64,000 bases of DNA from Pannonibacter carbonis. GTDB taxonomy: Bacteria > Pseudomonadota > Alphaproteobacteria > Rhizobiales > Stappiaceae. Positions 6,176-32,522 of this stretch are shown here, piece after piece (position 1 is the stretch's first letter; each line of letters opens with the position of its first letter). The position numbers were made by a program, and so were the translations under genes. The notes below the pieces were generated by a model. That model ran no database searches, was not told the origin of the DNA, and saw only the letters and a program-made list of their open reading frames with translations. Where the stretch lies: NCBI RefSeq assembly GCF_003012935.1, contig NZ_PUDR01000003.1, positions 248,001-312,000 of the forward strand, in the 5' to 3' direction.

Positions 6176-6204
6176 GTTGACCGGTCGCGGCGGACACAAT
6201 ACCG
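6176..6204 (+). promoter_or_regulatory. Possible ihfA promoter
   Basis: TTGACC at 6176-6181, a 17-bp spacer and TACCGT at 6199-6204 lie 65 bp upstream of ihfA. The match to the housekeeping sigma consensus is moderate. It would give ihfA its own transcript after the stem at 6146-6169. Confidence 0.35.
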
Positions 6205-6268
6205 TATTGGCGAACGTAACTTTTGCAGCAAAATCAGCCGGATCGATGATTTGAGGCAAGGAGGGGCC

Positions 6269-6586
6269 ATGGGCAGCAAGACCGTGACGCGCGCAGACCT
6301 ATGTGAAGCCGTCTATCAGAAGGTGGGTCTCTCGCGAACGGAGTCCGCCGAACTGGTCGAGCGTGTCTTGGCGGAGATATCCGACTGCCTTGTGACTGGC
6401 GAATCCGTCAAACTCTCGTCATTCGGGTCCTTCGTTGTCCGTTCCAAGGGTGAGCGGATCGGGCGCAACCCGAAGACCGGTGAAGAGGTGCCAATCTCGC
6501 CGCGGCGGGTGATGGTGTTCAAGCCGAGCAACATCCTCAAGCAGAAGATCAACGAGACGCTGGCCGGTGAGGGGCACGACGCCTGA
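6269..6586 (+). CDS. ihfA: Integration host factor subunit alpha
   Basis: DNA-bending HU/IHF-family protein, alpha chain of the IHF heterodimer. The start at 6269 follows a strong ribosome-binding site (AAGGAGGGG at about 6258-6266); the frame extends 18 bp upstream but the site decides this start. The 105-aa product has the N-terminal helices [20 protein letters not shown], the beta-arm [17 protein letters not shown] with the DNA-intercalating proline in the NPKTG-EVPI loop, and C-terminal [11 protein letters not shown]. ihfA after fabH and before a MerR gene is a conserved alphaproteobacterial order. Confidence 0.97.
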
Positions 6587-6955
6587 TTCTGCCCGCGGTT
6601 CCGGACTGCCGCTCTGGCGATGGTTGCCGGCCGATGTCAGATGTGGTGCCGCGCCTCGACCTGTATCGCTGCACAAGGGGAGCTGGCGCCTCGGCTGAGG
6701 GCTGGTATTGCCATAGCTTTGGGGCCATTGCTTTTCCAGTTCGCCCGGTGATCGGCGTTCGTCGAGGGACTGATCGCCGGGATTTGCCTGACTTGTGCGG
6801 ATTGCCGTCAGACTTTCTTGTTTTTGCCGCGTGCCCTTGCAACTCGTTTAGACTGGGGACGGCGGGATTCGCGGCAGTGAACCTGTTTGACTGAAGGCAG
6901 GCTGGCCATGCCTGCGCGAAGCGAGACCGGCAGATGCCGGGGAGAAACGATCACC
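6587..6955. other. Intergenic region between ihfA and the MerR gene
   Basis: About 370 bp with no supported gene. Short open frames here lack recognisable protein features. It presumably holds the promoter of the MerR gene, but no convincing -35/-10 pair was found. The MerR ribosome-binding site GGGGAGAAA is at about 6938-6946. Confidence 0.5.
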
Positions 6956-7600
6956 ATGTCGCTTGAGAAAAGCCCGGATGCGTTTCGCACCATCAGCGAG
7001 GTGGCCGAGGATCTCGACCTGCCACAACACGTGCTGCGCTTCTGGGAGACCCGTTTTACCCAGATCAAGCCGCTGAAGCGCGGCGGTGGCCGCCGCTATT
7101 ATCGCCCCGATGACGTCGAACTGCTGCGCGGCATCCGGCATCTCCTTTACGGCGAAGGCTATACGATCAAGGGCGTTCAGCGCATCCTGAAGGAACAGGG
7201 TCCGCGCTTCGTAATGCAGATCTGGCGCGAGGACGCCATTCCCTTGTCCGTTGCAGCGCGCGTCGATCTTGAAGACGACGAAGACGAGACACCTCGCCTG
7301 GAAACGCCGGTTCGCCGGCCAGCCGTGGTCGAGCAAGCGCCGGCCCCGGCGCGTGCTGAGCCCGGTCACGGTCTGCCGAGCGAAGTCCTGCCAAAAGGCC
7401 TCCTGTCCGATGATGATCCGCGCGTGCACGCCGCTCAGGCCAAGAGCAGCAGCTTCCGGTTCATGGAGCGGTTTCGCGCCGAAAAGGGGGAGGTGCATGC
7501 TGGAGGCAACGCAGCCCTTTCGAAGGACGACGTCAGGCGCCTTCAGGCGACCCTGTTTGAACTGCTGGAGTGCAAGAGACTTCTCGATCAGGCGCGCTGA
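6956..7600 (+). CDS. MerR-family transcriptional regulator
   Basis: A 214-aa DNA-binding regulator. The N-terminal winged helix-turn-helix is clear: [20 protein letters not shown], then [20 protein letters not shown] and [20 protein letters not shown] (residues about 10-75). The C-terminal half is acidic and proline-rich ([15 protein letters not shown]) with no cysteine cluster, so a metal or redox role like classical MerR is not supported. The start at 6956 has GGGGAGAAA upstream; an upstream in-frame start at 6887 is less likely. The gene is conserved beside ihfA in Hyphomicrobiales, but its target is unknown to me. Confidence 0.9.
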
Positions 7601-7630
7601 TCGAAGCTCGTTTGTTGATCTGGGCGGTGT

Positions 7631-7790
7631 CCTTGACAAAAGGCAGCAGAGCGCACATCTTCTAATTGAAGATTTCGAGGTGGGAACGGCCTCCCCACGC
7701 ACCCGCAAGGGTTAGTAGCCGCAAGGTGAAGAGATCCAGGACTTGGCACCCTGGCGAAAATAGAAAGCCCCGCTTCAGCGGGGTTTTTTA
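7631..7790 (+). ncRNA. Candidate small RNA with its own terminator
   Basis: Between the MerR gene and tRNA-Pro lies a segment with TTGACA (about 7633-7638), a CATCTT box 17 bp later, then a structured stretch with short self-complementary pieces: GTGGG/CCCAC, CCCGCAAGGG, GCCGCAAGGT, CCAGG/CCTGG. It ends in an excellent terminator at 7766-7790. No open frame fits it. I do not recognise the family; it is not obviously 6S, 4.5S, tmRNA or RNase P. It could instead be a long 3' UTR of the MerR mRNA. Confidence 0.45.
7766..7790 (+). terminator. Rho-independent terminator
   Basis: Stem GCCCCGC-TTCA-GCGGGG followed by six T residues. It terminates the MerR transcript and/or the candidate small RNA upstream. 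Confidence 0.9.
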
Positions 7791-8361
7791 TTTGGTCGCG
7801 ATCAGATGCCCCTTGCGCAGACGCCGTTCCAGTTTGTCCCGGTCAATCGGATATGTGGACTTCACGAGATAGAACTCGCCCGCAACAGGTTTGGCCAAGA
7901 CTGCCACCAGAACAATCAGGCCGACTGCATTTACCTCTCTGACAAGTTCAAATCCCTGGTGCAGGTGCTTGGGCGATTGACCGACATGCGTTGGGTCGAC
8001 GACTGTCTGCGACAGGTAAGGAAGGCATGACAGGAACGTATCTGGATGAGATTTCCAAGCGTGTTTCTGGGCCGGAATTGTGAATGAGACTTGGCCCTCG
8101 GGCAGCATCAAGCCAAATCGGCTGAAATGATGGACCGGGAGGGCAGCAAGTACAAGCGGCCGAAATCGCGGTGGACGATTGTCTCGTGTCAACTGCCATG
8201 CCCCGTCAATCAAGGCATATTGGCATGGCACGGAAAGGTTGTCGATTTCTTGAGTGCACCCTGAGGTGCTGAAGGGAAGGCTTCAACCAGGGACGGGCTG
8301 ACTGTCTTCTGTGTTGTCCTGGGCGGCACTTCTGGGGGAAGTGCGAGACAACATCGTGATT
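7791..8361. other. Intergenic region without a confident gene
   Basis: About 570 bp between a terminator and tRNA-Pro. A minus-strand frame (7788-8231, 147 aa, GTG start) is open, with one hydrophobic stretch near its C-terminus, but it has no ribosome-binding site, no recognised domain, and its stop lies inside the terminator T-tract. I do not call it a gene. The base composition is lower in GC than the flanking genes. Confidence 0.4.
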
Positions 8362-27456: not shown

Positions 27457-27933
27457 ATGGTCGAGCTGAACTCCCTGGACCAGCTGAAGGGCGCCGTTGC
27501 AACGGCCGCCGTTGAAGCCCCGGTTCACGTCCAGAAGCTGGACGCCCACGGTCGCGCCTATGCCACCGGCAAGCGCAAGAACGCGATTGCCCGCGTCTGG
27601 GTCAAGCCGGGCACCGGCAAGATCACCATCAACGGCACCGAATACCAGGCGTATTTCGCCCGTCCGGTGCTGCAGATGATCCTGCGTCAGCCGGTCATGC
27701 TGACCAACCGCGATGGCCAGTACGACATCGTTGCCACCGTCACCGGTGGTGGCCTGTCCGGTCAGGCCGGCGCGCTGCGTCACGGCATCTCCAAGGCCCT
27801 GACCCACTACGAGCCGGAACTGCGCGCCATCCTGAAGAAGGAAGGCTTCCTCACCCGCGACAGCCGCGTGGTCGAGCGCAAGAAGTACGGCCGTGCCAAG
27901 GCACGTCGCTCGTTCCAGTTCTCCAAGCGCTGA
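27457..27933 (+). CDS. rpsI: 30S ribosomal protein S9
   Basis: A 158-aa small-subunit protein whose C-terminal tail contacts the P-site tRNA. The conserved core is [40 protein letters not shown] and the ending [17 protein letters not shown]. The N-terminal extension of about 35 residues is typical of Alphaproteobacteria. ATG 27457 lies 2 bp after the rplM stop; a TTG at 27451 is in frame but less likely. Confidence 0.98.
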
Positions 27934-27960
27934 TCCCTCAGCTGCTTGTCAGACAACCGA

Positions 27961-27992
27961 AAAACCCGCCGGTGCAAGCCGGCGGGTTTTTT
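27961..27992 (+). terminator. rpsI terminator (copy 1 of a duplicated segment)
   Basis: AAAACCCGCCGG, loop TGCAAG, CCGGCGGGTTTTTT. It is preceded by GTCAGAC and followed by GGTTTTTGGGGGG; a diverged copy of the whole segment lies at 28790-28855. Confidence 0.92.
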
Positions 27993-28028
27993 GGTTTTTG
28001 GGGGGAGGGGGTGGCGGTGTTCCTGTGG

Positions 28029-28682
28029 CTACGGCTTTGCTCGGATGAGGTCTGTTACTGTCTGGATCTTGTCCGTCCACGCCGCAGCTGTCAGATCCGC
28101 CCACGAAATCACCTCATGGATCCGTAGATAGTCTTGTTGGAGAGGTCTGTTGAAGATCGGCTCATGATGAGCAATGCGATTGCGAAGCTCCCTGATTTTC
28201 AAGACTGTTTGGTTGGCGTGACCGCGTAATGCCTGCACGGTCTTGCCTTGATCAGTGTTTGGGAAGATCTGCCGGAAATAGGGATTCCAGAGCACGCCAT
28301 CATGGCCGCTCGTGAGCATCTTTTCCCAGAAAACGAATTTTAGTTCGGCGATGATCTTGCCGGAGGTCGGAAGGTGTCGCAGGCTGATGAGATTGCTGCG
28401 TGGATTGTATCCCGTGGAAGGACTTCGAAGACTGATTTCAAAGCTCTTTTCCCACGGCCAGTTCAGTCCATAGGCGAATTCTATCGCCTGGACGACCGAG
28501 TTTCGCAGACTAATTTCACAGATTTGAAGTGGCACAAAAAAAGCCGCAGAGACTTCAAGATTCCATTGGTAGAGTTGAAGCGCCTGTTCCTTGTTGCCAT
28601 TTCTGGCTGAAAGGTATGTAGCAAAGCGTGGAGCGGAAAGAACGCGAGGAAGCTTCTGGATCTCATCATGCGTGAAATGCAT
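28029..28682 (-). CDS. Abi-family protein with HEPN ribonuclease motif
   Basis: A 217-aa protein of the Abi_2/AbiD-F-like group. The C-terminal KIRELRNRIAHHEPIFNRPL contains the HEPN motif R-N-x-I-A-H (residues about 164-173), the active site of HEPN RNases involved in phage abortive infection and toxin-antitoxin systems. The N-terminal half has the family helices LSAPRFATYLSARNGNKEQA and QLYQWNLEVSAAFFVPLQIC followed by EISLRNSVVQAIE. GC content is visibly below that of neighbouring genes. It is inserted between two copies of the rpsI terminator and has no antitoxin gene overlapping it. Role in defence is inferred from family. Confidence 0.85.
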   Translation of the reverse strand: MHFTHDEIQKLPRVLSAPRFATYLSARNGNKEQALQLYQWNLEVSAAFFVPLQICEISLRNSVVQAIEFAYGLNWPWEKSFEISLRSPSTGYNPRSNLISLRHLPTSGKIIAELKFVFWEKMLTSGHDGVLWNPYFRQIFPNTDQGKTVQALRGHANQTVLKIRELRNRIAHHEPIFNRPLQQDYLRIHEVISWADLTAAAWTDKIQTVTDLIRAKP

Positions 28683-28806
28683 CCTTCGGCTCTTCGGCTA
28701 TGTATTCGTATTTCTTGACAGTTTCATTTGTCAGTGTTTAAATCAAGATGAAAGGCGCGTGAGGTCGCGGATCGTAAGGTCACCCTCTCCGTCAGACGAT
28801 GATGTG

Positions 28807-28837
28807 AAAAGCCCGCTGGTGCCAACCGGCGGGTTTT
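28807..28837. terminator. Second copy of the rpsI-type terminator
   Basis: AAGCCCGCTGGT, loop and ACCGGCGGGTTTTTT, followed by GTTTTTGGGGATGGGG. Both the stem and the flanks (upstream GTCAGAC, downstream G-rich run) match the true rpsI terminator at 27961. Confidence 0.75.
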
Positions 28838-28845
28838 TTGTTTTT

Positions 28846-29786
28846 GGGGATGGGGCAGGCGAGAGACGCCTCTTTCCACCTGTGCTGCTGGAGCTGCGAA
28901 ACGCTCCGGGCCGAAAGGCACTGGAAACAGACCAGGCCCCGGCACAGGGCCGGCGCGGCGCGGGGGGCTTCGCAGAGCAGAGGTTTGGCAGAGCGCAGGT
29001 TTGGCAGAGCACAGGTTTGGCAGAGCACAGGGGGCCTGCCAAAGCTACAACCTGTCCCGCCTTTCCTCGTACCTGCGAACCCGCGGATCACCGGACCACC
29101 GGATCACCGTACACCGCAGTGTGCCGATCTTCCCCCGCTGGGAACCGCCACCTGAACGCTGCCCGCCCGGATAGCGCCCTGTCTACCGCCCTGTCCACCG
29201 TCCTGCTGGAGCCCCCCTTACCGCGCCGTCCCGGCCCTGTGCCGGGACCTGTCAGGCACGCACCGCCCCGACGCCACGGTCTTGGCAACAACACCGTGAT
29301 GGCGAGACGAGAGGAAGCCAGGTTGCGGGCGGACGACGACCCACCCGCCACTGTCATCCTGGAGCAGCTGAGCGTTAGCGAAGCGCCGAGCCGGGGCCTG
29401 TCCCGGGCTTGACCCGGGAGCCAGATGACAGCCGCGCACAGCGCGACAAGACCGGTTCACGGGGCTCGGCAAGGCCGTATCGATGATGCGTTCGCTGACG
29501 CTCACCCAGACGCGCTGGATTCTGGATCAGGTCCGGGACATTTTCCGGATCTGCGGTTCGCGTGCGCTCACCTTGTCCGGAATGACATACGGGGGGACGC
29601 TAGGTCTGGCTTGAGACCATAATCTAGATGCCGCCCATGCTCGGTGACGGTCTCGCTATTTACAACACCAAGGGGCCCAAAAGGCAGAATAAACGCCAGA
29701 AACGGAACCAGAACTAGAAAAAAAGGGCCAGATCAATCCACACCCGCGCTCGCCGGTAAAGTGCATTGGACGTGACGATTTTTTTA
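28846..29786. other. Repeat-rich non-coding region
   Basis: About 940 bp with no supported gene. Contents: an inverted pair of the CCGTCCCGGCCCTGTGCCGG-type repeat (28935-28957 and 29227-29250), a 16-bp tandem repeat (28981-29028), short CCGGATCACC-type direct repeats near 29090-29110, and further REP-like palindromic segments such as CCTGTCCCGGGCTTGACCCG at about 29397-29416. The last 150 bp (from about 29640) turn AT-rich toward the next gene. An open frame of 273 aa (28591-29412) has a repeat-derived, low-complexity translation and is not credible. Confidence 0.7.
28981..29028. repeat. Tandem 16-bp repeat, three copies
   Basis: AGGTTTGGCAGAGCGC, AGGTTTGGCAGAGCAC, AGGTTTGGCAGAGCAC in perfect register, with a partial unit (GCAGAGCAG) before and AGGGGG after. 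Confidence 0.9.
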
Positions 29787-29879: not shown

Positions 29880-30887
29880 ATGGGAAAGTGGAAAAAGAGC
29901 TTCAGAAGTCTGCCCCCAAGGATCAGTGCAGAAATGGAGAAAATCAGTTCTCCAAATTTAAAAGTGCTCGCTGGAAAAGAAGTCTCTCAGCAGGAGGTTG
30001 AAAACGGTGTGTACTCTCATCTTGGATTGAACATTGATACACTAGAGGTCGGAAAATCTTGGGAAATTGTACCGGCGTCGGATTGCGGAATGCGCTCCAA
30101 GCGAAATTTGGACGGATGGGTGAACGTTCGACGGGATCTGCCAAAATTTACGAAGTATTTTTATCATGATATTGCGATCTACGGTGATGCGACACGAAAC
30201 GGCATGATGACCGTAGCTATTCCGCGTGAAGTGTACGAGAGAGATGAATATCCACCTTATCTTTTTCACGTTGAAATTTCTGTTAAAGAGCATCTGAAAA
30301 ATGGTTTGTATGGCATAGTATTCTCCGTGGATGAGGTTTTTCTTCGTGGCTCATCGAGTTTTGATGAGGATTTGTTTTTCGCAGTAAACCTACTCCAAGA
30401 GACGACGGGTGTTTCGGGAGTTGTCGCCGCAGAAAATCCAGATTTTGTTTTTTCAAGCGTATTAAATTGGGAGTTCTTTCCTCCGGGAAATCTTGAAGCC
30501 GTCAAAACCTCTTTATGCAGCGGCAATCGGCCGATTTCAGAAGACACGGTATCAGAACGTTTAGATCTTTTTGAACAATTTAATCCATTGCAGTATTTGC
30601 GCGGCCTTGGAGGAAATGATTATTATGTAGGTGCAAAATATTCGGATGATCTCGTTGTGTTTGAAAATTTGAAATACGGAAATGCGCTGTATGTCTTGTA
30701 CGATGACTGGGAAGAATTGTCTAAGCGCCCAAGAAGTGAATTACTGAAACTTAGAACTAGCAAGTTTGACCGTTTAGTGCACGTACAGGGCTGGGAAACA
30801 CGATTTGCCGTGTTGATGCAAACCAACCTTGAAGCGCGTGGCATAAGAATTCGTGTGGGGCGCAATATACGTCGCCGCGTCCGATAG
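29880..30887 (+). CDS. Hypothetical protein of unknown family, AT-rich, probably acquired
   Basis: A 335-aa soluble protein with no signal peptide or membrane segment. ATG 29880 has AGGGGA at ideal spacing; the frame extends to 29853 but this start is stronger. Base composition departs sharply from the neighbours: the line 30301-30360 has 26 G+C of 60, and codons ending in A/T are frequent. The N-terminus is basic (MGKWKKSFRSLPPRISAEME); the middle is rich in Phe, Asp and Val; the C-terminus has a distinctive ENLKYGNALYVLYDDWEELS, then KRPRSELLKLRTSKFDRLVH and a basic end RIRVGRNIRRRVR. I do not recognise the family. Its context after the HEPN gene suggests an accessory or defence role, which is inference only. 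Confidence 0.85.
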   Translation: MGKWKKSFRSLPPRISAEMEKISSPNLKVLAGKEVSQQEVENGVYSHLGLNIDTLEVGKSWEIVPASDCGMRSKRNLDGWVNVRRDLPKFTKYFYHDIAIYGDATRNGMMTVAIPREVYERDEYPPYLFHVEISVKEHLKNGLYGIVFSVDEVFLRGSSSFDEDLFFAVNLLQETTGVSGVVAAENPDFVFSSVLNWEFFPPGNLEAVKTSLCSGNRPISEDTVSERLDLFEQFNPLQYLRGLGGNDYYVGAKYSDDLVVFENLKYGNALYVLYDDWEELSKRPRSELLKLRTSKFDRLVHVQGWETRFAVLMQTNLEARGIRIRVGRNIRRRVR

Positions 30888-32274: not shown

Positions 32275-32522
32275 GGTTGTCCTCACGCCCCGCGCGCCGG
32301 CCGCCGCGCGTGAGGCGGCGGCCGGCGGTTGAGGCAAACCTTGAAGTTCTAGTCGGCAGGGCCGGACGGCACAAGGGTGCCGGTTTTGCGCGTTGTGATC
32401 GGAACCCGGTGCCTGGTCACCGCCTGGGCCGGGCTTTGCCCTTCCCCCTTGCCTTTCGTGGTGCCTCGGCTAGGGTCGCGGCGCGGGCCAGGCAGGTCCG
32501 TGATCGACCTAGCGGAGCCCCC

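Follow-up and report, generated by a model that had tools for sequence, protein, structure and literature searches.

In the accessible parts of the papers cited here, the AbiF protein of C. difficile is described as toxic and as neutralised by RCd22, an RNA encoded upstream of the toxin gene on the same strand and co-transcribed with it (PMC12373285), PbAbiF and its RNA AbiFr are reviewed together with the ancestry of Cas13 (PMC12737573), and the HEPN domains of Cas13 cluster with AbiD/F (PMC12165695). PD-T4-5, a plasmid-borne anti-T4 gene of E. coli, is counted among the Abi defences as a distant relative of AbiF/D, and no RNA partner is mentioned for it in the accessible part of that source (PMC9519451). 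As to the genomic site considered here, the 3′ end of rpsI is the target of a tyrosine integrase of ICEs and IMEs in Streptococcus (PMC4701971), and in the accessible part of PMC9239051 rpsI appears as a tree marker only. In the literature searched, we found no report of the rpsI site as an insertion site in Pannonibacter, nor, in a search that covered few subscription papers, of a divergent RNA beside the AbiF-like HEPN family.

The window (the whole stretch of 64,000 nucleotides analysed, from Pannonibacter carbonis) contains an Abi-family gene directly behind rpsI (Table 1). In common with the AbiF systems (RCd22 in C. difficile; AbiFr with PbAbiF, PDB 8VZ6), the locus has an Abi_2/HEPN protein with an AbiF-like fold and a candidate small structured RNA with a terminator that adjoins the gene. 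Whereas RCd22 is read through into the toxin gene, the promoter and terminator seen here are directed away from the HEPN gene, and the RNA of the window and of the scanned homologue loci is unmatched by the AbiF RNA motif RF03085. The PD-T4-5 profile is matched, but by a protein of 217 aa against 309 profile positions, and a divergent RNA element is present here. We consider it reasonably likely that an AbiF-like RNase, held by its divergent RNA, was acquired and joined to the chromosome at the rpsI terminator, and our confidence in the gene, its fold and the conserved element is higher than in this reading as a whole.

Table 1. Features of the rpsI locus in window coordinates.
Feature	Position	Strand	Basis
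rpsI (ribosomal protein S9), resident gene	27457-27933	+	NCBIfam PRK00132.1, 203.5 bits
T1, rpsI terminator, directly 3′ of rpsI	27961-27992	+	sequence
HEPN/Abi_2 gene, PD-T4-5/AbiF-like, 217 aa, GC 0.506	28029-28682	-	ORF, profiles, alignment, fold
RNRIAH codons of the HEPN motif (residues 167-172)	28167-28184	-	26-protein alignment
Candidate promoter of the divergent RNA: TTGACA, 17 nt, TTAAAT (10/12)	28715-28743	+	
Candidate ncRNA, divergent from the HEPN gene	28750-28841	+	start estimated from promoter
5′ hairpin of the ncRNA, paired changes among relatives	28754-28793	+	
T2, RNA terminator, hairpin and tail of the genus rpsI-terminator type	28807-28837	+	

An AbiF-like HEPN gene with a patchy distribution

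The ORF and its motif agree with the sequence-only reading, which had described an Abi-family gene with an RNxIAH HEPN motif on the strand opposite to rpsI. The protein scored 25.8 bits with Abi_2 of Pfam (barely over the cut-off of 25.6), 59.5 bits (E = 7.6e-17) with the PD-T4-5 profile of PADLOC and 22.6 bits with the AbiD profile; HEPN_Swt1 and HEPN_RiboL-PSP fell below the cut-off, and an NCBIfam search of the protein gave no match. Among 26 aligned proteins, all matched the PD-T4-5 profile and 24 matched Abi_2 (E 0.001), and R164, R167, N168, R169, A171, H172, H173 and E174 were invariant, so that R167, N168 and H172 of the HEPN RNase motif R-x4-H (here RNRIAH) are fully conserved. AlphaFold2, given an alignment of 15 sequences from the window and viral contigs, produced a model with a pLDDT of 93.4, as against a poor single-sequence prediction (pLDDT 46.7). 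The best of 119 Foldseek matches was 8vz6_A, i.e. PbAbiF bound to ncRNA (probability 0.99, E 0.09, TM 0.49), the other PDB matches listed having a probability of at most 0.21; none of the 119 PDB matches had E < 0.001, and a sequence-based search of the PDB with the protein gave no match. The protein probably belongs to the AbiF/PD-T4-5 type of HEPN RNases and forms a dimer.

A protein search found no homologue in the four other Pannonibacter genomes (G001-G004; the genome of the window is G000). In the first search, 2 of 60 other relatives carried one (3 of 61 with the window itself), and homologues were present in 23 of 385 genomes of the class (window included), in 590 of 72,556 plasmid records (best 70%, Rhizobium daejeonense) and in 5 of 50,697 phage records, three of which are named Zymomonas mobilis, one of these being described as a plasmid. 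The first viral scan, with a single protein as query, gave no match; a later protein search of viral contigs yielded 36 HEPN loci. DNA homology to plasmids covers much of the HEPN gene and occurs again from 28750 to 28800-28816. The gene had been proposed to be acquired cargo, and this proposal is supported: it is absent from all four congeners rather than shared by all close relatives, and its composition is not core-like (GC 0.506 versus 0.639 for the window). It was probably acquired by horizontal transfer, plausibly out of a plasmid pool.

The divergent element and its terminator

Alignment of the regions upstream of the relatives' HEPN genes revealed a conserved block on the opposite strand, which in the window reads GGCGCGTGAGGTCGCGG ... 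CACCCTC ... CGTCAGACGATG and is followed by T2. The insert is thus not the lone cargo gene it had been taken for: in close relatives, be they plasmid-borne, chromosomal or on viral contigs, the gene is accompanied by a divergent element, which consists of a sigma-70-like promoter close to where the HEPN gene starts and of a structured RNA (~80-97 nt) with a terminator at its end. A nucleotide search with 28680-28850 matched 12 plasmid records, namely the five best HEPN plasmids, matched at the upstream place, and seven records of Rahnella, in which the terminator stretch only was matched. In the closer group (17 loci, 38-100% protein identity), a promoter-like hexamer pair points away from the HEPN gene; its -10 box is separated from the HEPN start by 25-128 nt, and the terminator ends a further 83-97 nt on in the 17 loci. 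In an automatic test, 14 of the 17 showed at least 9 of 12 promoter letters and 16 a terminator in range. The element is absent from an eighteenth closer locus (L277, 53% identity), which has an annotated transposase gene upstream. Beside more distant HEPN genes (28-45% identity; 14 loci), the stretch is shorter, at 50-69 nt, and carries a CCCCGG...CCGGGG hairpin together with a core resembling GCCUCUGCC.

When a promoter of at least 9/12 with a terminator downstream within 210 nt was required, 18 of 41 HEPN starts passed (loci in which the element had already been seen included; L221, the same place as L220, left out), versus 2 of 359 other ORF starts from Pannonibacter. None of 24 viral upstream regions passed this strict test, and models were used there instead. 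The -10 box of the window is imperfect (4/6), and transcription of the divergent RNA from the candidate promoter is predicted from these sequence features. No Rfam family matched the RNA element in the loci scanned, and RF03085 gave no match with the window stretch at an E of up to 5 or with the non-viral homologue loci scanned (18 at the gathering threshold, 16 at E up to 10).

The gene had been placed exactly between two terminators, the second of them a copy of that of rpsI. Gene, T1 and T2 are all confirmed, but "exactly between" understates the arrangement, because the module includes the divergent promoter and RNA (28715-28841) and T2 is therefore a part of the module, not merely its border. 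T2 and the preceding GTCAGAC occupy the place of the RNA end in close relatives, and T2 should therefore act as the terminator of the RNA. GTCAGAC had been listed among the features common to both terminators, but a shared descent of this motif was not confirmed: it corresponds in the window to GTCATACGAT, which is conserved within the RNA element beside the HEPN gene in the closest relatives, and is module and not rpsI sequence. That T2 simply duplicates the rpsI terminator was rejected in this form, as the upstream alignment shows it to be the 3′ end of the module RNA.

The likeness of the two terminators goes beyond chance, and they are not unrelated in alignment: T1 and T2 score 76, and of 23 terminator-like sites compared over 317 kb of this genome, T2 matches T1 best (next other site, 53). 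The hairpin type (loop TGCNA), in a pattern written to fit T1 and T2, occurs with 0 mismatches at seven places in the five Pannonibacter genomes, all at the rpsI locus only, and matches with 1-3 mismatches exist elsewhere. For the hairpin and tail of T2 (55 nt), the scores are 77 with the rpsI terminator of G002, 69 with T1 of G000, 67 with the terminator of G004 and 60 with that of G003, and rpsI terminators from other genera reach at most 58. Among 684 distinct terminators (3.18 Mb; a set rich in rpsI loci), the five best matches of T2 after itself are Pannonibacter rpsI terminators (G002, 77; G001, also standing for T1, 69; G004, 67; third G001 copy, 62; G003, 60), followed by a score of 58.

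Could T2 be wholly the module's own terminator, resembling T1 through convergence of strong GC-rich terminators, after ordinary illegitimate recombination behind rpsI? At this place, close relatives do show a GC-rich hairpin together with a T-run, in some cases with a GTTTTTGG tail, and the GTCAGAC match is module sequence. We regard this explanation as somewhat unlikely, since the terminators of 16 related modules score at most 42 with T1 and at most 37 with the T2 hairpin and tail, well apart from the rpsI scores given above, and a single base in the loop separates the T2 hairpin from the rpsI-terminator hairpin of G002 and G004. Of the proposed second copy of the rpsI terminator, the closeness of the hairpin to the rpsI terminators of the genus thus stands, but the element is not free-standing and ends the module's RNA. 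We infer from these comparisons that the RNA body came with the module and that the T2 terminator is rpsI-derived, i.e. that the right junction lies inside the terminator. The module would have settled behind rpsI via recombination at the terminator, a route of which we are less sure than of the reading as a whole, and its right end would now have an rpsI-type hairpin as RNA terminator. T1, which is 98.8% identical over 81 nt to a displaced copy in G001, would still serve rpsI and, because it has a T-run on both strands, could also terminate HEPN transcription arriving from the right.

Structure and possible role of the RNA

RNAalifold, applied to 17 sequences, predicted 14 pairs, eight with two-sided changes (seven in the terminator, one in the 5′ hairpin), with a covariation term of -1.13. 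In a hand-set 5′ hairpin (segments taken from single folds, a procedure biased towards structure), two-sided changes occurred in 9 of 10 pairs and 98 of 100 cells were paired (10 distinct rows), compared to a mean of 73.6 in shuffles, none of 2000 reaching 98. Before these counts, L277 (element unseen) was dropped from the closer-group RNA alignment and L215 (insertion) from A2.

Models were built for the closer group (R1) and the distant group (R2). R1 matched the window at 28745-28841 with 63.2 bits, the window sequence being itself in the model; its own 17 sequences scored 49.5-82.5 bits and others in the same search at most 26.4, with 17.5 for the T1 region. Among the 385 genomes, R1 gave eight matches above 50 bits, six of which adjoin HEPN genes (all six model members). 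As a specific finder R1 was rejected: at E 0.01 or better it matched in 235 of 385 genomes, and two mid-score matches were plain terminators (41.6 bits in the window's own genome, C29; 39.7 bits in G382). R2 gave 25 matches of at least 39 bits in 15 of 385 genomes, 13 of them among the 23 HEPN-positive genomes (12 of these 13 being model sources); in G129 the match adjoins a HEPN gene left out of the model, and in G428:C57 a degenerate HEPN remnant. RNA copies with no HEPN gene within ~1.5 kb include the two remaining R1 matches above 50 bits (G097:C6, G226:C4) and the R2 matches in G421:C41, G240:C121 and G336:C124, for which the available DNA contains no HEPN gene. In the records L288 and L289 (1501-1593), from two genomes, the closer-group RNA is identical over 93 nt with no HEPN gene nearby. 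In L207 (G240:C68, record 6186-7916), five distant-group RNA hairpins surround one HEPN gene in two groups at a spacing of ~200 bases.

Model matches upstream of viral HEPN genes, on the opposite strand and at E < 1e-4, were found in 15 of 24 sources, several of the positives being close kin; L321, which is truncated, and near-identical loci had been set aside. R1 matched L312-L315, L317 and L319 with 26-51 bits, L313 being almost the same as a sequence in the model. R2 matched L320, L322-L326 and L328-L330 (21.7-28.7 bits); L345, L332 and L333 showed weak matches and 6 of the 24 none. Matches elsewhere in these searches scored at most 18.3 bits, except in L003 and L215, both adjoining HEPN genes.

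The insert is best read as a compact toxin-RNA module, consisting of an AbiF/PD-T4-5-type RNase toxin and a divergent RNA antitoxin. The divergent promoter would yield a structured RNA of ~90 nt, which most likely binds the HEPN protein and keeps the RNase silent, as in type III toxin-antitoxin pairs; upon phage takeover or transcription shut-off, the RNA supply would stop, the RNase would be freed and growth would be blocked (abortive infection). Toxicity, neutralisation and defence are all predicted, with RNA neutralisation of AbiF (PMC12373285) as a precedent, and the antitoxin function is held with less confidence than the reading as a whole. Alternatively, the RNA could serve the HEPN promoter region as regulator or sensor, or be a leader whose gene has been lost, and the divergent layout, unlike that of RCd22 (PMC12373285, accessible part), would suit such a role; the paired changes in the 5′ hairpin, the terminator straight after it, and the retention of the RNA beside a degenerate HEPN remnant (G428) and as gene-less copies, as might be expected of an antitoxin, make this alternative unlikely.

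The rpsI site and implications

The rpsI-guaD distance is 3025, 4725, 777 and 1166 bases in G000, G001, G003 and G004, respectively (the G002 contig ends earlier), and as short as 123 (G483) and 137 (G472) bases in other genomes. The site is variable, and its content differs in all five Pannonibacter genomes: the HEPN module and a 335-aa gene of unknown kind (G000), a methyltransferase-like gene, an rpsI fragment and a SIR2-STAND protein of 835 aa (G001), transporter-like, GNAT-like and methyltransferase-like genes and an rpsI fragment (G002), an exonuclease-like gene (G003), and the transporter-like gene alone (G004). The gene shared by G002 and G004 is presumably a transporter. The methyltransferase-like gene occurs in 2 of 61 family genomes, at rpsI in both; behind it lie rpsI 3′ fragments of 49 (G001, L038) and 60 codons (G002, L039) with terminator, and the rpsI 3′ end is duplicated in these two genomes, whereas in the window the terminator hairpin and tail alone look repeated. 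The 835-aa protein of G001 (L038, 2177-4684 from the rpsI end; GC 0.44) has SIR2-like and nSTAND domains and is defence-like.

In the window, the spacer downstream of T2 contains dispersed repeats, as seen in the orthology comparison with congeners; these intergenic repeats (28930-29586) are also found at other places in the same genome. The 335-aa ORF (29880-30887, between module and guaD; GC 0.44) was without match in Pfam, NCBIfam and PADLOC. Elsewhere in the window, a skipping-rope RNA (RF02924, 55.9 bits) was detected at 7670-7762. Other intervals of the window vary as well (61-138 bases versus ~9 kb near 32400), and the rpsI site is variable but not unique in varying. The suggestion of a hot spot for defence genes is modestly supported: one other defence-like gene (SIR2-STAND, G001) was found, but nearby intervals vary too.

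The rpsI terminator recurs on the same strand (score of at least 50) in 5 of the 87 family genomes (seven genera), namely G000, G001, G002, G032 and G061. The range covered was 6 kb downstream, or shorter in those five of the 87 where contig or stretch ends earlier; the reverse-strand control at the same score gave one match, the palindrome of a real copy in G001. In G032 (L068), copies at 33-59 and 652-678 from the rpsI end flank a 149-aa ORF without Pfam match. The sequence-only reading had proposed looking for empty sites with one terminator in relatives, and such sites exist for G032 in its sisters G009 and G014, where in alignment homology resumes at the distal copy. In G061 (L073), an exact 26-base repeat of part of the rpsI terminator (39-64 and 231-256 from the rpsI end) flanks a short, repeat-like intergenic insert. 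In G032 and G061, the two copies are the sole matches to the searched pattern in each genome. Three further candidates were not counted as terminator duplications: L135 (mainly flank recurring in related Mesorhizobium loci), L175 (a GC-rich, weak match) and L122 (a short tandem duplication in a MAG contig).

A remnant of an ICE or IME for which the rpsI 3′ end was the attachment site, its integrase having been lost since, would have the same target gene as the Streptococcus elements (PMC4701971, accessible part) and would fit the rpsI 3′ fragments and terminators downstream of cargo in G001 and G002, but is quite unlikely, since a search of the rpsI contig up to 50 kb from the gene gave no tyrosine integrase (PF00589) in 10 genomes (some contigs short), the T1-T2 interval holds one protein gene and the RNA element with no rpsI coding fragment beside T2, and the repeat length differs from genome to genome (~26 to ~230 nt), which does not resemble a fixed att core.

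A far-reaching idea, which we consider very doubtful, is that the HEPN RNase can exchange its divergent RNA partner instead of being tied to a fixed antitoxin. On this view, the family could be an RNase system loaded with RNA, on the AbiF side of the origins of Cas13, and modules of this RNA-ending kind might join a chromosome by trading terminators with a resident gene, here rpsI. Exchangeability is suggested by the five RNA copies around one HEPN gene in one genome and the gene-less copies in others.

Under the reading preferred here, of an acquired AbiF-like RNase held by its divergent RNA, the chimeric terminator would be a concrete case of a small module joining the chromosome at a terminator with no visible integrase. 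Genes of this kind that are cloned without the RNA on the opposite strand may be mis-tested. If the RNA neutralises the RNase, a family usually annotated as lone hypothetical or Abi-like genes would be a two-part system with a type of RNA unlike RF03085, and this would bear on how RNA-bound HEPN enzymes led to Cas13.
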